From Nitrospiraceae bacterium (GTDB lineage: Bacteria > Nitrospirota > Nitrospiria > Nitrospirales > Nitrospiraceae), in the NCBI GenBank assembly GCA_014534095.1, contig JACVSD010000056.1:1-11797 (forward strand): a DNA stretch of 11,797 nucleotides, given 5' to 3'. The notes below the pieces were generated by a model that had not been told where the DNA came from, did no database searches, and saw nothing but the letters and a program-made list of their open reading frames with translations. Shown here one piece after another: positions 722 to 11,797 of the stretch (the stretch's first letter is position 1; each line of letters opens with the position of its first letter). The position numbers were made by a program, and so were the translations under genes.

Positions 722-1093
722 ATGGGTAACGCGGCCGTGCCAGCCAACTATGTGCCGATCCTCGTCTTTATCGGGATTGCGATCGCGTTCGGCGCAGTAT
801 CGCTCCTGGCCGGATGGTTTGTCAGACCGAGTCATCCCTATCGCGCCAAACTGGCCCCCTATGAAAGCGGCAGCCCGCTCTTTCACGATGCCCGGGTCCA
901 GTTCCCCATGCGGTACTACATCATCGCGATGCTCTTCGTGATTTTCGACATAGAAATCGTCTTTATGTTTCCCTGGGCAGTTGCTTTCCACAAGCTCGGC
1001 CTGATTGGATTGGTGGAGATGAGCGTGTTCATCGGCATTCTGGTGGTGGGATTTTGGTACGCCTGGAAAAAGGGGGCGTTAGAATGGGACTGA
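722..1093 (+). CDS. nuoA: NADH-quinone oxidoreductase subunit A (NuoA)
   Basis: A 123-residue membrane subunit of complex I (ND3 homologue). Three hydrophobic segments are visible, at about residues 9-31, 63-84 and 91-112. The loop between the first two carries the family signature: YESG at about 47-50, then DAR, then MRYY leading into the second helix. FDIEIVFMFPWAV is the conserved second-helix sequence, and the C-terminus KKGALEWD is typical. The loop between helices 1 and 2 lies near the quinone cavity in known structures. Many homologues have Cys in this loop (YECG); here it is Ser, a common variant. ATG at 722 gives the usual length. The only purine-rich sequence upstream is ACGGGA at the end of the heptamer array, so the ribosome site is weak. 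nuoA is the first structural gene of the operon, and the gap to nuoB is 142 bases. Confidence 0.97.
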   Translation: MGNAAVPANYVPILVFIGIAIAFGAVSLLAGWFVRPSHPYRAKLAPYESGSPLFHDARVQFPMRYYIIAMLFVIFDIEIVFMFPWAVAFHKLGLIGLVEMSVFIGILVVGFWYAWKKGALEWD

Positions 1094-1239
1094 GCGGGAT
1101 TTACGGGGCGAATGTGAACTCGCCCACCGCGCACCGAAGATCCGCTAATTGCCGAACCATGGATTGGTGCTCGGTGGATGCCCGCAGCAAAGGACACGCC
1201 ATCGCCCCTTCTTTGCGTAGAAGGATAAAAACGGAATGA
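1084..1239 (+). other. Possible 51-codon small ORF bridging nuoA and nuoB
   Basis: ATG at 1084 overlaps the last 10 bases of nuoA in another frame. The frame stays open through the 142-base spacer and ends at TGA 1237-1239, which overlaps the nuoB ATG as ATGA. A good Shine-Dalgarno-like AGGGGG lies 7 bases upstream (1071-1076), but those bases also encode the conserved KKGA of NuoA. The predicted peptide is basic and has no domain I recognise. Its second half uses codons uncommon in the neighbouring genes (AGA, AGG, ATA), which argues against a conserved protein. If translated at all, it may only deliver ribosomes to nuoB. It could equally be a chance open frame. Confidence 0.2.
1094..1235 (+). 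other. nuoA-nuoB spacer with two small hairpins
   Basis: This is the longest spacer in the operon, at 142 bases. GGGCGA at 1106-1111 pairs with TCGCCC at 1120-1125 around an 8-base loop. A second stem pairs CCGAACCA at 1152-1159 with TGGT at 1165-1168 and TCGG at 1171-1174, with a 2-base bulge. Neither stem is followed by a T-run, so neither looks like an intrinsic terminator. The 3' end holds GAAGGA at 1220-1225, the likely ribosome site for nuoB. I see no convincing sigma-70 promoter pair. Confidence 0.4.
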
Positions 1240-1715
1240 GTTTTTTAGAGCGCCAATTCGAAGCCAATATCATCACCACGAATCTGGACGCTGTCGTGAA
1301 CTGGTCCAGGAAATCAGCCTTGTGGCCAATGACCTTCGGTCTGGCCTGTTGCGCCATCGAGATGATCGCCAGCGTGTCTTCCCGCTATGACCTGGACCGG
1401 TTCGGCGCGGGCGTATTCCGGGCCTCCCCGAGGCAGTCCGACCTGATGATTGTCGCCGGAACGGTCACGCGCAAGATGGCGCCGGTCATCCGACGGATTT
1501 ACGACCAGATGCCTGAACCCCGCTATGTCATGTCGATGGGGTCCTGCGCCACGTCCGGCAACCACTACAACAGCTACGCGGTCGTGCAGGGTGTCGATCA
1601 GATTGTGCCGGTCGACGTGTATGTACCCGGGTGTCCCCCGCGGCCTGAAGCGCTGATGGACGGCCTCCTCAAGCTTCAGGAAAAAATCCAGCGGGAAAAG
1701 GTCTTCGTCAAATAA
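1236..1715 (+). CDS. nuoB: NADH-quinone oxidoreductase subunit B (NuoB), N2 cluster subunit
   Basis: A 159-residue peripheral-arm subunit (PSST homologue) that binds the terminal 4Fe-4S cluster N2, which passes electrons to quinone. The four expected ligands are present: the adjacent pair C38-C39 in [10 protein letters not shown]104 in MGSCA, and C133 in PGCPPRPE. The [18 protein letters not shown] segment at about 52-69 is characteristic of the family. The protein is at the short end of the family because it lacks the N-terminal extension of E. coli NuoB (about 220 residues). Where many homologues read SGG after the third ligand, this one reads SGN, a mild variation. ATG at 1236 has GAAGGA 10 bases upstream and fits the usual MSFLE-type start. 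The stop TAA at 1713-1715 shares one base with the nuoC ATG, so translation is probably coupled. Confidence 0.97.
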
Positions 1716-2044
1716 TGATGCCCGCATTGGCCGACACGCTGCTCAAGAGATTCCCGGACGCCGTCCTGTCCGTCCATGTCGACGCGGCGCGTTCGGAGGT
1801 TTCCGCTCAGATACGGGCCTCGAAACTTCTGGAGATCGCCCGCTATTTGCACGATGCGCCCGAAGCGTGTTTCGACCACATTACCGACATCTGCTCGGCC
1901 GACTATCCTGAAGACTCGCAGCGGTTCGAAGTCATCTATCAGCTGCTCTCTCTGCCTCATGGGAAACGGATTCGCCTGAAGGCGCGGGTAACGGAAGACA
2001 ATCCAACATTTGTGTCCGTCACCGGCATCTGGCGCGGCGCCTAA
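1715..2044 (+). CDS. nuoC: NuoC (30 kDa subunit), N-terminal part cut short by an in-frame stop
   Basis: The frame encodes 109 residues matching the first two-thirds of the complex I 30-kDa domain: FDHITDICSADYP at about 53-65, RFEVIYQLLSL at about 69-79, and SVTGIWRGA at 101-109. Family members then continue with an [22 protein letters not shown] block. Here TAA at 2042-2044 stops the frame just before that block, and TAG follows at 2051-2053. The missing block resumes in the same frame at 2054 and is joined to nuoD. The gene is therefore not a complete NuoC. It is either the 5' part of a disrupted nuoCD fusion or an error in the sequence. The start is ATG 1715, or the adjacent ATG 1718. Upstream AAAAGG (1696-1701) is a weak and distant ribosome site, consistent with coupling to nuoB. 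Confidence 0.85.
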   Translation: MMPALADTLLKRFPDAVLSVHVDAARSEVSAQIRASKLLEIARYLHDAPEACFDHITDICSADYPEDSQRFEVIYQLLSLPHGKRIRLKARVTEDNPTFVSVTGIWRGA

Positions 2045-2068
2045 TTTCTTTAGCGCGAAGTATACTAT
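2042..2068 (+). other. nuoCD: Stop-bearing junction inside the NuoC conserved block of a nuoCD frame
   Basis: Read in the nuoC frame, these nine codons are stop, Phe, Leu, stop, Arg, Glu, Val, Tyr, Tyr, and are followed directly by [16 protein letters not shown]. The conserved NuoC pattern here is acidic or Asn residue, x, x, Glu, Arg, Glu, x, x, Asp, Met. A single G-to-T change at the first base of three GAN codons explains all the deviations: GAA to TAA at 2042, GAG to TAG at 2051 and GAT to TAT at 2066. No frameshift is present. The joined frame from 1715 to 3469 would encode about 584 residues, close to the length of E. coli NuoCD (about 600). Confidence 0.8.
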
Positions 2069-3469
2069 ATGATGGGCATCCGGTTTACCGGCCACCCGGA
2101 TCTGCGCCGCATCCTGATGCCGGAAGACTATGCGGAAGGTTACCCCCTCAGGAAGGACTTCCCGACCGAAGGACGGGGCTGGCGCAGCGAATTCAACTTC
2201 ATCCCGCGCCTCGATGAACCGCCGGTTGAGCAGCGGGAGGGCGAAATCTCGGAACAGCAAAAAAAGCCGTTCGTCTCGGAGAGCGCGCCCCAGGGATCCC
2301 GCCGGCGTGAAGAATTGCTCCTGAACATGGGACCGCAACATCCCAGCACCCACGGTGTGCTGCGCGTCGTGCTCGAATTGGACGGCGAGCGGATCGTGAA
2401 GGCGACCCCGGACCTCGGCTACCTCCATCGCGGAGTCGAGAAACTCTCCGAGGGCCTCGCCTACATGCAGATCATTCCGCACACCGACCGGCTCGACTAC
2501 GTGTGCGCCATGGCGAATAACTACGCCTATGTACGGGCCGTCGAGAAGTTGCTCGGGATCACGGTACCCGAACGGGCGGAATATGTCCGCACCATTGTCG
2601 CGGAGATGCAGCGGATCGTCGGACATCTCTTCTGGCTCGGCACGCAGGCGCTCGACATCGGCGCCATGACCGTCTTTTTCTGGACATTCCGGGAGCGGGA
2701 AACGTTGCTCGACCTGTTCGAAAAGCTGTGCGGAGCCCGATTAACGTTGAATTATTACCGGATCGGCGGCGTGGACAGCGACTTCACCCCAGACCTGGTG
2801 CTCCGCTTAAAGACGTTTCTCGACACGTTCCCCCAGAAGGTTCGCGAATATGACTCGCTGATTGCCTCGAACCGGATCTGGCTGGGCCGCACGAAGAACG
2901 TGGCCGTCATTTCAGCCGACGATGCCATTAACTTCGGCTTGACCGGCCCCACGCTCCGTGGCTCGGGCGTCGCCTACGACGTCCGCAAGATGGAGCCCTA
3001 TGGGGTGTATCACAAGGTGGACTGGGAAGTGCCCGTCGGCAAGAACGGCGACACCTATGATCGGTATTGGATCCGGATGGAAGAAATGCGGCAGAGCGCG
3101 AGGATCATCGCCCAATGCCTCGACCAGATGCCGCCGGGGCCCATCATGGCGGAGGTCCCGCAGTACATTCCCCCTCCGAAACCCCAAGTCATGCGGGACA
3201 TGGAGAGCTTGATCCACCATTTCATCATCTTTACCCAGGGGTTCAAGCCGCCTAAAGCCGAAACCTACTGCGGGACCGAGGCGCCCAAGGGCGAACTCGG
3301 GTTCTTCATCATCAGCGACGGCAGCCCGCGTCCCTATCGATTGAAGATCCGCTCGCCCTCCTTCATCCATATGGGCGCCTTCGACCACATGGCCCGTGGC
3401 TATCTCATTTCCGACATCATTACGATCTTTGGCACATACGATATTGTGATGGGCGAGTGCGATCGATGA
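2069..3469 (+). CDS. nuoD: NuoD (49 kDa subunit) with the C-terminal segment of NuoC at its N-terminus
   Basis: A 466-residue frame. Residues 1 to about 33 are the end of NuoC ([18 protein letters not shown], then GYPLRKDFP). Residues 34 to about 80 form a charged linker, and NuoD proper starts near [17 protein letters not shown]. NuoD with NuoB forms the quinone-binding pocket. The His of the THG loop (H95) and a Tyr 49 residues later (Y144 in DRLDY) match the spacing of the quinone-head ligands known from Thermus Nqo4. R121 in LHRGVEKL corresponds to the arginine dimethylated by NDUFAF7 in human NDUFS2. The C-terminus [12 protein letters not shown] is the normal family end. The first available ATG after the stops is 2069 (or 2072). 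It has only a weak GAAG (2057-2060) upstream, so this may not be a natural start. The TGA overlaps the nuoE ATG as ATGA. The NuoD assignment is firm; the 5' limit is uncertain because of the disrupted fusion. Confidence 0.93.
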
Positions 3470-4014
3470 CTCTGACTGATAAATATCCGGACGAAATCGC
3501 CGACATCCTCAGCCGCTACCCGGTCAAGCGGTCGGCTCTCATCCCACTGCTCTATGTGGCGCAGCGGGATGCCGGATACATTACGGAGCCGGCGATGAAA
3601 GAAATCGCCAAATTGCTCGGCTTAACGCCCCCACAGGTCTATGAGACGGCCACCTTCTACACCATGTTGAATTTGAAGAAGGTGGGCCGGTTTCATATTC
3701 AGGTCTGCAAATCGCTCATGTGCGCCCTGGTGGGCTCCGACACGGTCCTCGCCTGGATGAAGACGAAACTGGGAATTGGGCCGGGCGAATCGACGAGTGA
3801 CGGTCTCTTTACGGTGAGCGCGGTGGAATGCCTGGCCGCCTGCGGGACCGGTCCGATGATGCAGATCAACGAGGATTATTACGAACGGCTAACCGAGGAC
3901 AAGGTGGATCGCATTCTTGCGGACCTAAGAACGACCGGCACGAGCGCGCTCAAGAGCGGTCCCTTCATGTGGCCGGACCCCTCGACCAACAACGCGTCAC
4001 GGCCCATCGGATAA
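3466..4014 (+). CDS. nuoE: NADH-quinone oxidoreductase subunit E (NuoE), N1a cluster
   Basis: A 182-residue thioredoxin-like 2Fe-2S subunit (24 kDa homologue) of the NADH-oxidising module, partner of NuoF. The N-terminal helical part carries [19 protein letters not shown], and the motif [16 protein letters not shown] follows at about 59-74. The N1a ligands are C81 and C86 (CKSLMC) and C122 and C126 (ECLAAC), with normal spacing. I chose ATG 3466, which overlaps the nuoD stop as ATGA. GTG at 3457 in the same frame would add three residues and is less likely. The Gly/Pro/Asn-rich tail after about residue 158 is longer than in E. coli NuoE (166 residues in all) and shows no motif. nuoF follows after four bases. 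Confidence 0.97.
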
Positions 4015-4018
4015 ACGA

Positions 4019-5326
4019 ATGCCGGCACACGAACTCATCTTGCTGAAAAACATGTCGCAGCCGGGATATGCCGGCTCGCTGGAGGAGTATGAGAGAACCG
4101 GCGGGTATCAGGCCTTGCGCAACACGCTTGGCCGGACGGCACCCACCGACGTGACAGCCACCGTCATGAAGTCCGGCTTGCGGGGACGCGGGGGAGCGGG
4201 CTTTCCGACCGGCGTCAAATGGGGCTTCCTGCCGAAAGAGTACCAAGGCCCCCGCTATCTCTGCTGCAATGCGGACGAAAGCGAGCCCGGCACCTTCAAG
4301 GATCGGCAACTGATGGAACGCGACCCGCACCAGCTGCTCGAAGGCATCGTGCTCGCCTGCTACGCCATTGGGGCCGCGTCCGCCTACATTTATATCCGGG
4401 GCGAGCTGGTGCTGGCCTCACGTATTCTCGAACGGGCCTTGAGCGAAGCACGCGCCGCCGGATACATCGGCAAGAATATCCTCGGCACAGGCGTCACCGT
4501 GGAGGTCTGGGTGCATCGTGGCGCAGGGGCCTACATTTGCGGCGAAGAAACCGCGCTGCTCGAGTCGTTGGAAGGCAAGCGCGGGCTTCCGCGCGTCAAG
4601 CCCCCGTTTCCGGCGACTCATGGGCTCTACAACAAGCCGACCGTCGTCAATAATGTGGAGACGCTGGCGAACCTGCCTCACATTCTCAATCGCGGCGCGG
4701 AATGGTTTGCCGCCATCGGCTCTCCGCCCAAGAGCACGGGCACGCGAGTCTTTTGCGTCAGCGGCCATGTGAAACGCCCCGGGAATTACGAAGTGCCCAT
4801 GGGTGTCACGTTCAGGGAATTGGTCTATGAACATGCCGGCGGCATGCGTTCCGACAAGCCGATGAAAGCGTTCATCCCGGGAGGCGCCTCAGCCCCGTTT
4901 TTGACACCAGATCATCTCGATGTAAAACTGGACTTCGAGTCTGTGGCCGCAGCGGGTTCCATGCTTGGCTCCGGCGGTGTGACCGTGATGGAAGAAGGGA
5001 CGAGCATGGTATGGGCTGCCCTGCGCCTCATGGAATTTTTCTACCACGAGTCGTGCGGCAAGTGCAGCCCGTGCCGGGAAGGCAGTTCTTGGCTGGTTCA
5101 AACGATGCGTCGCATTGTCGCGAAGCGGGGGCAGGCACAGGACCTTGAAACCTTGACCGATCTATGCAAAAACATCGCCGGTCGCACAGTCTGCGCCTTT
5201 GGGGATGCCGAAGTCGCCCCCATTATGAGTACCCTGAAACATTGGCGGCACGAGTACGTGACCCTCATTCATGAAGCCGAAGCGGCCAACCTGATCCGGC
5301 CCGAGCCGGTGCGCGTTGGTAAGTAA
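4019..5326 (+). CDS. nuoF: NADH-quinone oxidoreductase subunit F (NuoF), NADH/FMN-binding, N3 cluster
   Basis: A 435-residue 51-kDa homologue that binds NADH and FMN and holds 4Fe-4S cluster N3. It is the electron entry point of complex I. The nucleotide/FMN glycine loop GLRGRGGAGFPTG lies at 53-65, NADESEPGTFKDR at 84-96 and GAYICGEETALLESLEG at 170-186. After the SLBB-type region the N3 ligands are C346, C349 and C352 (CGKCSPC) and C392 in TVCAFGD, with the usual 39-residue spacing. Length is typical for the family. ATG 4019 follows the nuoE stop by four bases, and a GGAT near the end of nuoE could be a weak ribosome site, so translation is likely coupled. The module order E-F-G is the standard bacterial one. 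Confidence 0.98.
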   Translation: MPAHELILLKNMSQPGYAGSLEEYERTGGYQALRNTLGRTAPTDVTATVMKSGLRGRGGAGFPTGVKWGFLPKEYQGPRYLCCNADESEPGTFKDRQLMERDPHQLLEGIVLACYAIGAASAYIYIRGELVLASRILERALSEARAAGYIGKNILGTGVTVEVWVHRGAGAYICGEETALLESLEGKRGLPRVKPPFPATHGLYNKPTVVNNVETLANLPHILNRGAEWFAAIGSPPKSTGTRVFCVSGHVKRPGNYEVPMGVTFRELVYEHAGGMRSDKPMKAFIPGGASAPFLTPDHLDVKLDFESVAAAGSMLGSGGVTVMEEGTSMVWAALRLMEFFYHESCGKCSPCREGSSWLVQTMRRIVAKRGQAQDLETLTDLCKNIAGRTVCAFGDAEVAPIMSTLKHWRHEYVTLIHEAEAANLIRPEPVRVGK

Positions 5327-5355: not shown

Positions 5356-5369
5356 TCACGAGTCACATT
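5356..5369 (+). repeat. Two TCACNNN heptamers before nuoG
   Basis: TCACGAG (5356-5362) and TCACATT (5363-5369) stand in tandem, one base before the nuoG ATG at 5371, in a 44-base spacer that has no Shine-Dalgarno sequence. On its own this would be too short to call. It is listed because clearer arrays with the same TCAC register precede nuoA and nuoK. Confidence 0.3.
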
Positions 5370-5370
5370 G

Positions 5371-8088
5371 ATGCCTAATACGACCACAGACACCGTTCGT
5401 CTTACGATCGACGGCCATCAGGTCACGGTCCCGAAAGGGACCTTGGTCATCGAAGCGGCGCGGCGGGTCGGCGTCATGATTCCGCATTTTTGTTATCACC
5501 CGAAGCTCAAGCCGGATGCGAACTGCCGCATGTGCCTCGTCGAAGTCGAGAAAATGCCGAAGCTCCAGACGGCTTGTAGCACGCCGGTGGCCGAAGGCAT
5601 GAGCGTGCGCACCGCGACCACCGTGGTCCATGACGCCCATAAGTCCGTCCTCGAATTCATCCTGGCCAACCATCCGCTGGACTGTCCGGTGTGCGATCAA
5701 GGCGGCCGCTGTGACCTGCAAGACTTTTCTCATCAATATACGGCCACGAGCAGCCGCTTTGTCGAAACGAAGCGCATCTTCCCCAAGGAGTATTTCAGTC
5801 CGCTCATCGAAACGCAGATGAATCGCTGCGTGCAGTGCCTGCGTTGCGTCCGCTATTGCGACGAAGTGATGGACGTGAAGGCCCTCGCCCCGGTGGGCCG
5901 CGGCACCATGACGGAGATCAAGCACTTCGGGCCCCACCCGTTGGACTGCGAGTTCTGCGGCGGCTGCGTGCAGATCTGTCCGGTCGGCGCCATCACCAGT
6001 CGCCTCTCGATGTACGAATACCGGCCGTGGATGTTAAAACGCGCCGACACGATATGTGGCTATTGCGGAGACGGCTGTCAGATCACCGTCCAAATGAAGG
6101 ACCAGGAACTCGTCGAAGTCAATTCGGCTCATGGAGCCGGACGAAACAACGGCGATCTCTGTGCACGGGGGTTTTTCGGGTTCCATGCCGGCCATCATCC
6201 GGAACGGCTCACCCATCCCTTGGTGCGCCGTCACGGCGTGCTCACGCCAGCGACGTGGGAAGAAGCGTTGGAGTTCATCGCGGAACAGACCGGCATCCTC
6301 AAAGCCGCCCACGGCGGACAAAGTTTCGGGGGACTCATTTCCGGACGCTGCACCAACGAAGAACTGTATCTCTTCCAGAAATTCATGCGCATCGCGATTG
6401 GCACAAACAACGTCGACAGCAGTGCCCGTTATGGGCATCTCAACGGGGTCCAGGCCATGCGGCGGGTCCAGGGCACCCACCGGTGGACCGTCAGCTTCGA
6501 CGACATCCTCTCCGCCGACGTGCTGTTGCTGGTGGGGACGAACATTACGGAATCGAATCCGATCACGGGGCTCAAGGTCAAAGAAGCCGTCAAGAAGCGG
6601 CATGCTCGCCTCATAACGATTGAAGCACTGGAGCCGGCGATCGATGCGATCAGCAACATCGCCAACCTCTCGTCGCACCATTTTGCCGTCCAGACCTCGT
6701 ACCTCCGCAATGCGGTTCTCGGGCTACTCAAAGCGGTCGTCGATCAGCAGCTGGTTCAGCCGGACCTCGAGCAGGCCCACCCAGCTTACGTGCAGGCAAT
6801 TACAGGGGCGCTTGAGCGGATGTCCTGGGAAGATGTGGCGGCGGCCACCGGCATGGACCGATCGGCCTGGCTGGACGCAGCCAAGGTCCTGGCGACCGGT
6901 CGGCGGGTCATCGTGCTGGCCGGGCAAGGTCTCCTGCGCAGCCAGGCCGGCTACACCGGTTCCATGAACCTGCTCGACCTGTTGCTCCTTACGGGAAAAC
7001 TGGATCAGCCGGGATGTGGGTTTGCTCCCCTGGCGGAAGAGAATAACGACCAGGGTGCGATCGAGATGGGCGCCGCCGCCGAATTCCTGCCGGGCCTCTG
7101 TGATATCGCGGATCGCACCGTCCGGGACCGCCTGATGACATTATGGGGAGACGAGCCGCCGGCGAATGGCGGAGCATCCCTGGTCGAAATGCTGGACCGG
7201 GCTGGCGCGGGCCTCCTCAAAGCCATGTTCATCGTCGGGGAGAACCCCGTGGCGAGCCTCCCGGCCCAAGTGCAAGCCGAAGCCTCGTTGCGCAAACTGG
7301 ATCTCCTGGTCTGTCAGGAGTTGTTTCTCACGGAAACGGCCGCGCTGGCCCATGTGGTCCTGCCGGCGGCGTCCTCAATGGAGAAAAGTGGCACCTTCAC
7401 CAATACGGAAGGGCACGTGCAGGCGATTCGACCGGCAGTGGAGCCGGCTGGAGAAAGCCGACCCGACTGGGAAGTGTTCGCAGCGCTGGCCGTGCTCATG
7501 GATTCGCCGTTCGAGTACGCGGACAGTAAAGACATTCTGAAAGAAATCCGCAGTCTCATTCCGGGCTATGCGTCGCTCGGGCCGGCGCCGGTCTTGCCCA
7601 AAGCCGATGACGCCACGATGGACCGGTATCTGACGGCCGGGCATCAACAGGACCTGGCACCCCGATATACGTTGGAGGCGCCGACGCCTCACCCCGAGGG
7701 GTCCCTGCAGCTGGAACTCGTACAGAGTCTGTTTCACTCGGGCAAACTCTCGACCCGCTCAAAAGGCCTTGTGCAGATCGAAGGCACGGGAGCGCTGCGC
7801 ATGAGTCCCCGCGATGCGGCTCGCTGGGCGCTCAGGGATGGCGACCGCGTGCGTCTGTCGAATGCCCGTGGGGAGTTGGTCGCGCCGGTCAAGGTCGTTG
7901 GACGCGTGCCGGAAGGTCTGGTCTGGTTTCCCGACCACTTCGGCCAAGCCGCCATCCACTTGTTTGATTGTAGCATCGACCCGGTCACCCGCGTACCGGC
8001 TTTTCGGACGACGGCGGTATCGATGGTGAAAATCCATGAGCAGAGCACCGCGAATCTGACGTTAACTGAGGGGAGTCATCGTGACTGA
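5371..8088 (+). CDS. nuoG: NADH-quinone oxidoreductase subunit G (NuoG), with N7 cluster site
   Basis: A 905-residue 75-kDa homologue carrying the iron-sulfur relay of the NADH module. Ligands seen in order: 2Fe-2S N1b C41, C52, C55, C69; the His-ligated cluster H101, C105, C108, C114; two 4Fe-4S sets C153/C156/C159/C163 and C193/C196/C199/C203; and a fourth set C229/C232/C236/C264. The last set has the CxxCxxxC-x27-C spacing of cluster N7, which only some bacteria keep. From about residue 225 the protein resembles molybdopterin oxidoreductases (GYCGDGCQ, GDLCARG), ending in a dinucleotide-binding-like domain at about 775-880. In complex I no molybdenum cofactor is bound there. Length is close to E. 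coli NuoG (about 908). ATG 5371 is preferred over TTG 5368. It has no SD and may depend on coupling from nuoF. The end overlaps nuoH by 8 bases. Confidence 0.98.
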   Translation: MPNTTTDTVRLTIDGHQVTVPKGTLVIEAARRVGVMIPHFCYHPKLKPDANCRMCLVEVEKMPKLQTACSTPVAEGMSVRTATTVVHDAHKSVLEFILANHPLDCPVCDQGGRCDLQDFSHQYTATSSRFVETKRIFPKEYFSPLIETQMNRCVQCLRCVRYCDEVMDVKALAPVGRGTMTEIKHFGPHPLDCEFCGGCVQICPVGAITSRLSMYEYRPWMLKRADTICGYCGDGCQITVQMKDQELVEVNSAHGAGRNNGDLCARGFFGFHAGHHPERLTHPLVRRHGVLTPATWEEALEFIAEQTGILKAAHGGQSFGGLISGRCTNEELYLFQKFMRIAIGTNNVDSSARYGHLNGVQAMRRVQGTHRWTVSFDDILSADVLLLVGTNITESNPITGLKVKEAVKKRHARLITIEALEPAIDAISNIANLSSHHFAVQTSYLRNAVLGLLKAVVDQQLVQPDLEQAHPAYVQAITGALERMSWEDVAAATGMDRSAWLDAAKVLATGRRVIVLAGQGLLRSQAGYTGSMNLLDLLLLTGKLDQPGCGFAPLAEENNDQGAIEMGAAAEFLPGLCDIADRTVRDRLMTLWGDEPPANGGASLVEMLDRAGAGLLKAMFIVGENPVASLPAQVQAEASLRKLDLLVCQELFLTETAALAHVVLPAASSMEKSGTFTNTEGHVQAIRPAVEPAGESRPDWEVFAALAVLMDSPFEYADSKDILKEIRSLIPGYASLGPAPVLPKADDATMDRYLTAGHQQDLAPRYTLEAPTPHPEGSLQLELVQSLFHSGKLSTRSKGLVQIEGTGALRMSPRDAARWALRDGDRVRLSNARGELVAPVKVVGRVPEGLVWFPDHFGQAAIHLFDCSIDPVTRVPAFRTTAVSMVKIHEQSTANLTLTEGSHRD
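8068..8075 (+). promoter_or_regulatory. Strong ribosome-binding site deciding the GTG start of nuoH
   Basis: GAGGGGAG lies five bases before GTG 8081 and inside the 3' end of nuoG. It is one of the best Shine-Dalgarno matches in the window and fixes the GTG start despite the 8-base overlap with nuoG. Confidence 0.7.
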
Positions 8089-9157
8089 AATCGGTCTACG
8101 CCTTGCTGTGTCCCTTGCCCAGATCGCCGCCGTCATGGGCATTGTGATGTTGACGGTCATGATCCTGACGCTGGCCGAACGCAAGGTGCTGGGATGGATG
8201 CAAGACCGCATGGGGCCCATGGAAGTCGGTCCCTACGGGATACTGCAACCCATCGCCGATGGACTGAAGCTCTTTTTCAAGGAAGACATCGTGCCGGCCG
8301 GCGCGAACAAATTTCTGTTCAGCCTCGCGCCGATTCTGGCCATGGTGCCGGCACTGATCGGCTTCGCCGTCATTCCGTTCGGGCCGGACCGCACGCTCGA
8401 AGTTTTCGGCCTGACCATCAAGCCCTTCGTCATCAGCGATATCAACATCGGCATCCTGTATATCCTTGCCTTCACCTCCATCGGGGCCTACGGCATCATC
8501 CTCGGCGGGTGGGCTTCCAACAGCAAATATTCGCTTCTCGGCGGCCTACGGTCGGCCGCTCAAATCATCAGCTATGAATTGAATGTGGGATTGGCCATCG
8601 TCGGCGTCTTGCTGATGGCCGGCTCCTTGAGCCTGGTGAAGATTACGGAGGCTCAGGCGGGAGGCTTTTGGCATTGGTACGTCTTTGCCTTTCCCGCACC
8701 ACAAATCTTTGCGTTCGTGGTGTACGTCATCTCGGCCGTGGCGGAAACGAACCGCGTGCCGTTCGACTTGCCGGAAGCGGAAAGCGAGCTGGTCGCCGGC
8801 TTCTTTACGGAGTACAGCGGCATGCGCTTCGCGTTTTTCTTCATCGCCGAGTATGCGAACATGGTCCTCGTGTCGTGCGTCGCCGCCGCCTTGTTCCTGG
8901 GCGGCTGGAATGCGCCCTATCCCGGCACGATCCTGGGGCATCTGGGCTTAGAATCGCTGTCCTGGGCTGAAGGCGTCGCCTGGTTCACCGTCAAAGTCTA
9001 CGGCTTTCTGTTTCTGTTCTTTTGGCTGCGCGCCACGCTGCCCCGGCTGCGTTATGATCAGCTTATGAAATTCGGGTGGAAGGTCATGTTGCCCATCGCC
9101 CTCGGCAATATCATCGTGACTGCCATCGCGGTCTATATTTACAATCAAATGCAGTAG
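8081..9157 (+). CDS. nuoH: NADH-quinone oxidoreductase subunit H (NuoH)
   Basis: A 358-residue multi-span membrane subunit (ND1 homologue) that links the quinone pocket to the proton-pumping arm. About eight hydrophobic segments can be seen. Family signatures are AERKVLGWMQDRMGP at 32-46, GPYGILQPIADGLKLFFKED at 50-69, and ETNRVPFDLPEAESEL at 222-237 followed by EYSGMRFAFFFIAEYANM at 244-261. These acidic loops line the quinone access channel in known structures. Many homologues have GPNRVGP where this protein has GPMEVGP. The GTG start at 8081 is supported by the GAGGGGAG ribosome site and by the normal short N-terminus before the first helix. The TAG stop at 9155-9157 is 11 bases before nuoI. 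Confidence 0.98.
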   Translation: MTEIGLRLAVSLAQIAAVMGIVMLTVMILTLAERKVLGWMQDRMGPMEVGPYGILQPIADGLKLFFKEDIVPAGANKFLFSLAPILAMVPALIGFAVIPFGPDRTLEVFGLTIKPFVISDINIGILYILAFTSIGAYGIILGGWASNSKYSLLGGLRSAAQIISYELNVGLAIVGVLLMAGSLSLVKITEAQAGGFWHWYVFAFPAPQIFAFVVYVISAVAETNRVPFDLPEAESELVAGFFTEYSGMRFAFFFIAEYANMVLVSCVAAALFLGGWNAPYPGTILGHLGLESLSWAEGVAWFTVKVYGFLFLFFWLRATLPRLRYDQLMKFGWKVMLPIALGNIIVTAIAVYIYNQMQ

Positions 9158-9168
9158 CGAACACGGCT

Positions 9169-9735
9169 ATGGCGCAGGCACCGACACAGCAACGCCGCTC
9201 CTTCACCAGCTGGCTCAAGACCATCACGTTCTACGAGATTCTCGTGGGCATGAAGGCCACGCTATCGCATTTGATCCATTACCAACCCATCACGCTGCAG
9301 TACCCGCATGAGAAACGCACCTTGCCGGACAACTATCGCGGCATGCTGGCGCTGCTGCGCTACGACGATGGAACCGAAAAGTGCGTGGGCTGCGATCTCT
9401 GCGAAGCGGCCTGCCCCTCCCGGGTCATTCGAGTGGTCAGCGCCGAAGTGCCGGGCGAGCCGACGAAACGCTATTCGAAAGAGTATTACATGGACATGAC
9501 CCGTTGCCTATTTTGCGGCATGTGCGTCGAGGCCTGTCCCGTCGACGCGCTGGGCATGACCAGAGAGTTTGAATGGGCGGTGTACGACAAGCGACAGCTC
9601 CATTTGAACAAGCAACAATTGCTGGCGATCGGCGATCGCTCGTTCCCGGTGCGCGAAAAGCGCCTCGAGTTGCAGCATCCGAATGTGGCGTTCTTCAACG
9701 TCCCCTATAAGCACGTACCGCAAAAACCGAGCTAA
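9169..9735 (+). CDS. nuoI: NADH-quinone oxidoreductase subunit I (NuoI), two 4Fe-4S clusters
   Basis: A 188-residue ferredoxin-like subunit (TYKY homologue) that carries electrons from NuoG towards N2 in NuoB. Two CxxCxxCxxxCP motifs bind N6a and N6b: C72, C75, C78, C82 and C113, C116, C119, C123. The amphipathic N-terminal region SFTSWLKTITFYEILVGM fits the membrane-surface helix of the family. Length is near E. coli NuoI (180). The frame is open further upstream into nuoH, but ATG 9169 is the first start after the nuoH stop and gives the usual N-terminus. The upstream bases have no clear Shine-Dalgarno sequence, so coupling from nuoH is likely. A 62-base spacer follows. Confidence 0.97.
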   Translation: MAQAPTQQRRSFTSWLKTITFYEILVGMKATLSHLIHYQPITLQYPHEKRTLPDNYRGMLALLRYDDGTEKCVGCDLCEAACPSRVIRVVSAEVPGEPTKRYSKEYYMDMTRCLFCGMCVEACPVDALGMTREFEWAVYDKRQLHLNKQQLLAIGDRSFPVREKRLELQHPNVAFFNVPYKHVPQKPS

Positions 9736-9756
9736 TCAGAGAGCATCATTGGGCGG

Positions 9757-9779
9757 GCACCGGATCCGGGCTCCGGCGC
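9757..9779 (+). other. Hairpin in the nuoI-nuoJ spacer
   Basis: G57-C58 and CCGGA (9760-9764) pair with TCCGG (9772-9776) and G78-C79, with one A-C mismatch and a 7-base loop. CCGGATCCGG at 9760-9769 is also a perfect palindrome and gives an alternative fold. No T-run follows, so it is not an intrinsic terminator. It sits 7 bases before the GAGGA ribosome site of nuoJ and could mark an mRNA processing point or tune nuoJ translation. Neither role is shown. Confidence 0.4.
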
Positions 9780-9797
9780 GTGGATGAGGATTGGACC

Positions 9798-10316
9798 GTG
9801 GGGCAGATTTTTTTCGGGTACTTCGCTGCAATCATCGTGCTGACAGCCGTCTTGGTGGTCGCACTGAAAAATCCGGTCTATAGCGCGCTCTCCCTCCTCA
9901 TCATGTTTTTTCATGTCGCCGGGCTCTATATTACGCTCCATGCCGAATTCTTGGCGGCAGTCCAGATCATCGTCTATGCGGGCGCCATTCTGGTGCTGTA
10001 TCTCTTTGTCGTCATGCTGCTTAATGTCAAGCGGGAGGACCGCTACCACAGCCAGTGGCGGATGGCGACGTTGGTGTGCGTCCCTCTGCTGATCGAATTT
10101 GTCGTCTTGCTCGCCGGCAGCGCCGCCACCGAGCGATTAGACAAGACTGTCCGGGCGGTCGGCGAGGCGGGTAGCGGAGATAATACGCTGGCCATCGGGG
10201 AAGCGCTCTTCTCGACCTACCTCTTCCCCTTTGAGGTCGCCTCGCTCATTCTCCTGGTCGCCATGATCGGCGCCATCATCCTCGCCAAAAAGGACATGGG
10301 AGGACGGGAAGCATGA
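9798..10316 (+). CDS. nuoJ: NADH-quinone oxidoreductase subunit J (NuoJ)
   Basis: A 172-residue membrane subunit (ND6 homologue) with about five hydrophobic segments. The conserved third helix AEFLAAVQIIVYAGAILVLY (49-68) includes Y60, matching the Tyr at the pi-bulge of this helix in known complex I structures. The last helix (about 138-165) is hydrophobic and ends in AKKDMGGREA. Two GTG starts are possible. I prefer 9798, because GAGGA at 9786-9790 lies seven bases upstream and it gives the common MGQIFFGYFAA-like N-terminus. GTG 9780 would add six polar residues and has no ribosome site. The stop TGA forms ATGA with a possible small ORF start at 10313. Confidence 0.95.
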   Translation: MGQIFFGYFAAIIVLTAVLVVALKNPVYSALSLLIMFFHVAGLYITLHAEFLAAVQIIVYAGAILVLYLFVVMLLNVKREDRYHSQWRMATLVCVPLLIEFVVLLAGSAATERLDKTVRAVGEAGSGDNTLAIGEALFSTYLFPFEVASLILLVAMIGAIILAKKDMGGREA

Positions 10317-10411
10317 GTGGCCATGCGTCATGGTCGAGCGGTTCAGGGGCGATCCGCTTCTGCTCCCCACCGGTCACCCGTCACGCACCACGCATCACGG
10401 GCACTTCATGA
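10313..10411 (+). other. Possible 32-codon small ORF bridging nuoJ and nuoK
   Basis: ATG 10313 overlaps the nuoJ stop as ATGA. It is preceded by GGGAGGA (10298-10304) at 8 bases, a better ribosome site than that of any nuo start in the window except nuoH. The frame runs through the heptamer array and ends at TGA 10409-10411, overlapping the nuoK ATG again as ATGA. The predicted peptide is Ser/Pro/His-rich and matches nothing I know. The site may be a relic of a former nuoJ-nuoK ATGA junction that was separated by inserted spacer DNA, or a translated linker that delivers ribosomes to nuoK. Chance is also possible. Confidence 0.3.
10374..10401 (+). repeat. Four TCACGCA-type heptamers before nuoK
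   Basis: Four heptamers lie in tandem: TCACCCG first, then TCACGCA and CCACGCA, and TCACGGG last. The array ends exactly 6 bases before the nuoK ATG (10408), as the array before nuoA ends 6 bases before its ATG with the same last unit. It fills most of the 3' part of the 91-base nuoJ-nuoK spacer. Confidence 0.6.
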
Positions 10412-10713
10412 CGGTGCCAGTATCCTACTATCTCATCTTGAGCGCAGTCGTGTTCCTCACGGGGGTGGCCGGCGTGCTGATCCGGCGCAACATTATCGCG
10501 ATCCTTTTGTCGGTTGAACTGATGCTGAATGCCACGAATATCAACTTCGTAGCCTTCTCAGAACATCTTCAAGATCTCGGCGGTCAGGTTTTCGTCTTTT
10601 TCGCGCTAACCGTGGCGGCAGCCGAAGTGGCGGTAGGCCTCGCCATCATCATCGCCCTCCACCGGTCGAGGTCCACGATCAACGTGGAAGAATTCAATCT
10701 TATGAAGTGGTAA
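10408..10713 (+). CDS. nuoK: NADH-quinone oxidoreductase subunit K (NuoK)
   Basis: A 101-residue membrane subunit (ND4L homologue) with three helices at about 6-26, 29-49 and 60-84. The two buried glutamates needed for proton pumping in E. coli NuoK (E36, E72) appear as E37 in SVELMLNA and E73 in AAAEVAVGLAII. Start: ATG 10408 gives the standard length and the typical VPVSYYLILSA N-terminus. An in-frame ATG at 10330 would add 26 residues encoded by the heptamer spacer, and I reject it. There is no good Shine-Dalgarno sequence at 10408, only the GGG of the last heptamer. nuoL starts eight bases after the stop. Confidence 0.97.
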   Translation: MTVPVSYYLILSAVVFLTGVAGVLIRRNIIAILLSVELMLNATNINFVAFSEHLQDLGGQVFVFFALTVAAAEVAVGLAIIIALHRSRSTINVEEFNLMKW

Positions 10714-10721
10714 CCCGTCCT

Positions 10722-11797
10722 ATGTATGTGGCGCTGATCCCCCTGCTTCCGCTGGCCGCCTTCCTCATCCTGGGGTTGGCCGGCTCGCGCATCAAAGACC
10801 GGGCCCATCTTGTGGCGGTTCCGGCCGTGCTGCTCTCCTGCGCGCTCTCGCTCGGAGCGTTTCTCGAGGTGGCTCGTGGATCGGTCCTGTCCGTTCCCCT
10901 TTACACCTGGCTCACCTCCGGACATCTGGACATCCATATCGGGCTCTACATCGACCGGCTCACCGCCGTAATGCTCTTGCTCGTCACGATTGTCAGCTCG
11001 CTCGTACACGTGTACACGATCGGCTACATGCAGGGGGATGCCGGGTACGCCCGGTTCTTCAGCTACATCGCGCTCTTTACGTTCTCGATGTTGATGCTCG
11101 TGCTGGCCGACAACCTGCTCCAGCTCTTCGTGTTTTGGGAAGCCGTCGGGCTCTGTTCGTATCTGCTCATCGGGCATTGGTACGAACGGGCACCGGCCTG
11201 TGCCGCGGCGACGAAGGCGTTCCTCGTCAATCGCGTGGGCGATTTCGGCTTTCTGCTGGGCCTCTTGCTGGTCTGGTACAGCTTCGGGACGTTGAACTAC
11301 CTCGAAATCTTCCCCGCCGCGCATCAAGCGCCCGATCTGACGATGAACCTGCTGGCGTCTTTTGGCGGCAGCTGGACGGTCTCCCTGTTTACCGTGATCT
11401 GCCTGTTGCTCTTTACCGGTGCCATCGGAAAATCGGCGCAGGTGCCGCTCCATGTGTGGCTACCTGATGCCATGGAAGGCCCCACGCCTATTTCCGCCTT
11501 GATTCACGCCGCGACGATGGTCACGGCCGGGGTCTTCATGGTGGCGCGGCTGGCTCCGCTCTACAACTTGTCTCCGGTGGCCATGGATGCGGTAGCCTTG
11601 GTGGGTGGCGCGACCATGATTCTCGGGGCCACCATTGCGCTGACCCAAACCGACATCAAGCGCATCGTCGCCTACTCCACGGTCAGCCAGCTGGGGTACA
11701 TGGTCATGGCCTGCGGCCTCGGCGCCTATGCCTCTGGGATGTATCACCTGCTGACGCATGGCGCATTCAAGGCCCTGCTGTTCCTCGGGTGCGGCTC
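10722..11797 (+). CDS. nuoL: NADH-quinone oxidoreductase subunit L (NuoL), 3' truncated by the window
   Basis: ATG 10722 opens a frame of 358 codons plus two bases that runs off the window with no stop. The full protein should be about 600-650 residues. It is the distal antiporter-like proton-pumping subunit (ND5 homologue). Multiple hydrophobic helices are visible. Key charged residues are present: E140 in FVFWEAVGLCSYLLIG, K237 in GAIGKSAQVPLHVWLPDA, H262 in SALIHAATMVTAG, and H342, H346 and K350 in YHLLTHGAFKALLF. These correspond to E144, K229, H254, H334, H338 and K342 of E. coli NuoL. The C-terminal helices and the lateral helix lie outside the window. The ribosome site is weak (a GAAGTGG about 11 bases upstream at the end of nuoK), which suggests coupling. 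nuoM and nuoN would be expected downstream. Confidence 0.97.
   Translation, partial: MYVALIPLLPLAAFLILGLAGSRIKDRAHLVAVPAVLLSCALSLGAFLEVARGSVLSVPLYTWLTSGHLDIHIGLYIDRLTAVMLLLVTIVSSLVHVYTIGYMQGDAGYARFFSYIALFTFSMLMLVLADNLLQLFVFWEAVGLCSYLLIGHWYERAPACAAATKAFLVNRVGDFGFLLGLLLVWYSFGTLNYLEIFPAAHQAPDLTMNLLASFGGSWTVSLFTVICLLLFTGAIGKSAQVPLHVWLPDAMEGPTPISALIHAATMVTAGVFMVARLAPLYNLSPVAMDAVALVGGATMILGATIALTQTDIKRIVAYSTVSQLGYMVMACGLGAYASGMYHLLTHGAFKALLFLGCG

Follow-up and report, generated by a model that had tools for sequence, protein, structure and literature searches.

Two in-frame stop codons in the nuoCD gene of a Nitrospiraceae metagenomic contig probably reflect a local sequence error

The window analyzed here, a stretch of 11,797 nucleotides from an uncultured Nitrospira bacterium (Nitrospiraceae), carries a nuoCD reading frame that is interrupted by two in-frame stop codons. 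We consider these stops to be, most probably, a local consensus error made in sequencing or assembly of the metagenomic contig and not the mark of a split gene; with the same degree of confidence, the organism would carry an ordinary fused nuoCD, and the operon would be the canonical one for complex I that occurs throughout Nitrospira. Base calling or assembly would have gone wrong over a patch of approximately 60 bases, where T was put in place of purines, and the cell itself would be free of the fault. An error is favoured because the changes form a cluster, run in one direction and alter two positions that are invariant, and because a protein record that is otherwise identical lacks them.

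Most of the window is filled by a complex I (nuo) operon running on the + strand from nuoA to the start of nuoL. The reading-frame list, NCBIfam and related loci identified nuoA (722..1093), nuoB (1236..1715), nuoE (3466..4014) and nuoF (4019..5326), and nuoG (5368..8088) was identified by NCBIfam with the ENA record P0180 as its match. nuoH, nuoI, nuoJ, nuoK and the start of nuoL occupy 8081..11795; here nuoH and nuoJ were named by NCBIfam, and nuoI, nuoK and nuoL from position and conservation only. These ten nuo genes are all open on the + strand, with no internal stop in any of them. The relatives of the locus are titled Nitrospira, Nitrospiraceae or Nitrospirae/Nitrospirota and show 85-92% identity over the NuoD piece (best 80 of 319). 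At the DNA level nuoCD is only about 80% identical to its best match among 79 genomes of the genus, from which we conclude that the species of the window is absent from those genomes.

The frame from 1715 to 3469 (+) comprises 584 codons with NuoC and NuoD in one phase. Translation agrees with the preliminary description in that this single frame is broken by exactly two internal stops, TAA at 2042..2044 (residue 110) and TAG at 2051..2053 (residue 113), with no frameshift. The break was also correctly placed inside the NuoC domain rather than at the NuoC/NuoD boundary. The N-terminal piece (1715..2044, +), which ends at the TAA, has 109 codons and holds most of the NuoC domain, aligning with the Pfam profile PF00329 (124 positions) from position 2 to position 79. 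The remainder, in the same phase (2069..3469, +; 466 codons from the first ATG), opens with PF00329 positions 89-123, so that the break falls between profile positions 79 and 89, and continues through a linker into NuoD, where TIGR01962 matches the 466-aa piece at 7.4e-172. NuoC and NuoD are thus joined in one phase as in a fused NuoCD; the uninterrupted frame that goes with this is lacking in the window and is found in the ENA record P0001.

P0001 is the best protein match to the 466-aa piece (best 120 of 8000 candidates scored). It comes from a separate contig of 3542 bp and encodes an intact protein of 584 aa, of which 579 residues are identical to the window frame. All five differences, the stops included, lie within residues 99-118, and they define a patch of five changed codons at 2009..2068 (+), corresponding to residues 99, 100, 110, 113 and 118. 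The preliminary description had noted the two stops and a change at 2066, all of which are borne out, but the damage is wider than it stated, since two further residues differ from P0001 at 2009-2014. The codon at 2066-2068 (residue 118) has changed from D to Y.

To judge the changed positions we used an aligned set of 100 of 165 related loci (L001-L080 and L146-L165), representing 92 distinct nuoCD sequences; a motif pattern for the region fits 63 of the first 80 loci, and the other 17 were still included in the 100-locus counts. No stop was found in nuoCD in any of these 100 loci. The conserved E, E and D at residues 113, 115 and 118 are all kept in 100 of 100 loci, and the window keeps only residue 115 of the three, having a stop at 113 and Y at 118. 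Residues 99, 100 and 110, the last of which is E in P0001, vary among the aligned loci and never show the letters of the window. Among the 79 genomes of the genus, at least 67 have a full-length fused copy with 83-89% identity to P0001, and none of these copies has an internal stop. Four more (G026, G027, G029 and G075) give partial nuoCD matches without stops, and the remaining eight have only more distant NuoCD copies, or none, among the matches listed. Compared with the canonical complex I of Nitrospira, the window has the same fused NuoCD, of the same length and phase and with about 80-92% protein identity to the relatives compared, and differs from it by three substitutions and by the two stops, all inside the span of residues 99-118.

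It is clear that the five changed codons are not placed by chance. When five codons were drawn at random from 584, they fell within a 20-codon span in about 7 per million draws (2,000,000 simulated draws). Each of the five codons can be explained by one purine-to-T change on the + strand; if the codons commonest in relatives are taken as the starting point, two of the five also require a C-to-T change. The 60-base patch contains 19 T, a count reached by 580 of 11738 stretches of that length, which adds little, as the five changed codons are counted in and T is not clearly overrepresented at the third codon positions (4 of 20, compared with 13.5% overall; 27% of 20-codon stretches have at least as many). 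A pseudogene formed by gradual decay was considered and rejected: a gene that decays slowly once its function is lost would be expected to collect disabling changes along its whole length, and here the differences from P0001 are confined to one tight patch, 20 of the 584 codons. Templated mutation, through a quasi-palindrome or by copying from elsewhere in the window, was likewise rejected. The longest exact matches through the five places were 8-10 bases, compared with a background mean of 9.2 and a maximum of 14 for 60 random places, and within 300 bases they were 5-8 bases, compared with a mean of 6.7 and a maximum of 12; at neither distance are they longer than background.

Three explanations had been offered for the stops: a wrong sequence, a recent inactivation and a split gene. 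The first is the best supported by our data and the second has some probability (see below), but the split gene found no support. It was tested against a set of relatives, none of which has the two stops, and the best protein match is intact. A working split would consist of the 109-aa NuoC piece and a second piece with the end of NuoC and NuoD, made by re-initiation at the ATG at 2069. Both pieces are open, this ATG lies 15 bases past the second stop, and separate NuoC and NuoD are normal in other types of complex I: Nitrospirales NUO types are described as canonical with fused NuoCD or as 2M with separate NuoC and NuoD (PMC12342949). The likeness to the 2M complex I of Nitrospira is restricted to the presence of NuoC and NuoD in separate reading frames. 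In 2M the boundary lies between the domains, with 168-170 as the end of most NuoC matches and 187-189 as the start of NuoD matches, whereas the window has its cut within NuoC and a sequence of the fused type. This cut removes residues 113-118, and a product started at 2069 would be devoid of residues 113, 115 and 118, which by motif spacing would correspond to Glu138, Glu140 and Asp143 of E. coli NuoC. These three residues are needed for stability (cited in PMC7050243), and in the E. coli NuoCD protein removal of the N-terminal domain, or separation of NuoC from NuoD even between the domains, is reported to abolish complex I activity (PMC7050243). No promoter-like site or terminator was found at the junction (1700-2400), no strong ribosome site was seen by eye before the ATG at 2069, and the predicted RNA structure of 1995-2085 is ordinary (z -0.46; 57 of 200 shuffles fold as well). 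Since in addition no relative examined shares the split, we regard a working split gene as very improbable.

A protein identical in its truncation to the 109-aa piece was not present among 59 matches, obtained from 71 candidates of 0.55-1.75x its length. The best-scoring of these matches has 73% identity; no match exceeds 78%, a value reached over 34% of the piece. Truncated NuoC pieces ending near the same place do occur in other records, two of them on long contigs and both from other species: P0131, a NuoC-like protein of 111 aa on a 12131-bp contig, and P0154, one of 114 aa on a 17467-bp contig. One of the best 120 matches to the 466-aa piece, P0120 (another species, 88% identical), has 466 aa and starts at the same methionine, which speaks for a split gene. 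These three records may be errors, contig ends or real, and they count against an error in the window.

Even less probable, and in our estimation next to negligible, is that the full protein is restored by stop-codon read-through, reassigned codons or RNA editing. The frame does continue in phase past the stops, as recoding would demand, but the ten other nuo genes contain no internal stop and no special RNA structure surrounds the two found here. Moreover, residue 118 is also changed, and read-through would leave that change in place.

The stops could also be real, as a very recent nuoCD null allele that arose in one clustered mutation event in a cell sustained by other copies of complex I. 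Such a loss may be survivable, as two or more copies of complex I are reported for most Nitrospirales genomes (PMC12342949), two forms of Nuo are described (PMC7784846) and N. moscoviensis is reported to have three complexes I (PMC6606698). The matches listed for the genus genomes include additional copies resembling NuoCD, with identities of about 62-70% and 42-44%. With multiple copies, a real loss is possible in principle, and the null allele stays alive as an explanation; it would also be helped if the window came from a slightly different strain than P0001 and P0180. Against it stand the five amino-acid changes in 20 codons with none in the other 564, the ten open nuo genes and the lack of a local or distant template above background for the changed letters. 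A further point against it concerns expression. The window frame is 87% and 41% identical to the two fused copies of N. moscoviensis (G002, the genome of locus L002), and we infer that its counterpart is CI_2, the complex with fused NuoCD that is described as the most highly expressed of the three in that organism (PMC6606698). Taken together, we consider a real null allele unlikely, and its more specific form, in which the canonical complex I of a natural strain was inactivated in a single event, by a strand-asymmetric burst of purine-to-T changes confined to 60 bases, while other copies sustain the cell, appears less likely still.

For a consensus error we counted, besides the patch itself, the ten other nuo genes without internal stops, the intact relatives and the want of a close match to the 109-aa piece. 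Known Illumina errors offer a partial parallel. With an older Illumina chemistry, wrong T calls are reported that affect G to begin with and, as the cycles proceed, A and C as well (PMC2745764); in MiSeq reads, T was the base called in 40-45% of the errors at G (PMC4381044). The likeness to such T-accumulation and G-to-T errors lies in purines being called T in a short stretch (PMC2745764, PMC4381044). The difference lies in the order, since the A-type changes precede the others when the + strand of the window is followed, while A errors in the old chemistry would follow the G errors; the order of A-type and G-type changes thus misfits a single read. Counted against an error were the unclear excess of T at third positions, the second, C-to-T change that two of the five codons may need, and the finding that errors at A in MiSeq reads were mostly to C (66-85%) and not to T (PMC4381044).

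One more point counted against an error concerns the relation of the window to the intact record. P0180, an ENA record on a 5048-bp contig, differs from the NuoG of the window at 4 of 905 residues, so that the intact record possibly comes from a sister strain. One of these four is NuoG residue 243 (codon 6094-6096), which is unusual in being M in the window, T in P0180, and T in 116 and A in 3 of 119 other homologues; it would be either a polymorphism or another single error. P0001 and P0180 may accordingly both belong to a sister strain; alternatively, the window may contain one more isolated error.

Outside the patch we searched gene by gene for unusual residues, defined as residues never seen in columns that are at least 90% conserved among the related loci. 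By this measure none was found in the rest of nuoCD or in nuoA, nuoB, nuoF and nuoK, and 18 were found in other nuo genes (nuoE 1, nuoG 8, nuoH 2, nuoI 1, nuoJ 1 and nuoL 5). Of the eight in NuoG, six are found close to its end, in a stretch of 113 codons where only 19 loci reach, and because P0180 has the same six residues we take them as differences of the lineage. NuoG also has a C-terminal extension at residues about 891-906 (8038-8085), where 118-119 of 119 homologues have gaps at the listed places and which is present in P0180. In NuoE, position 117 (3814-3816) is occupied by V, where 97 of 99 related loci have L.

Upstream from nuoA, on the same strand (+), lies a gene for a Methyltransf_28 protein (PF02636, 9.1e-32) at 2-637, cut by the start of the window. 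Among the loci L001-L080, a PF02636 gene is visible in 77, and in every one of these it lies at most 300 bases upstream of nuoA and on the same strand, with 57-73% identity; in the other three (L005, L035 and L046) the sequence ahead of the NuoD match is only 503-1223 bases long and stops short of the gene. We take PF02636 to be the MidA/NDUFAF7 family. It is a reasonable guess that the upstream gene is a candidate NuoD arginine methylase of Nitrospira, encoded beside its target operon, and the guess builds on the human enzyme. NDUFAF7 is reported to dimethylate Arg85 of human NDUFS2, the NuoD counterpart, a modification that complex I assembly requires (PMC3829151), and Paracoccus complex I is reported to carry the same modification (PMC8042128).

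The case serves mainly as a caution: a respiratory gene with two stops in a metagenomic contig resembles a split gene, yet an intact near-identical record and a one-directional cluster of changes suggest a faulty patch of sequence. Should the change prove genuine after all, the organism would offer a natural experiment on whether the canonical complex I is dispensable for life in Nitrospira.
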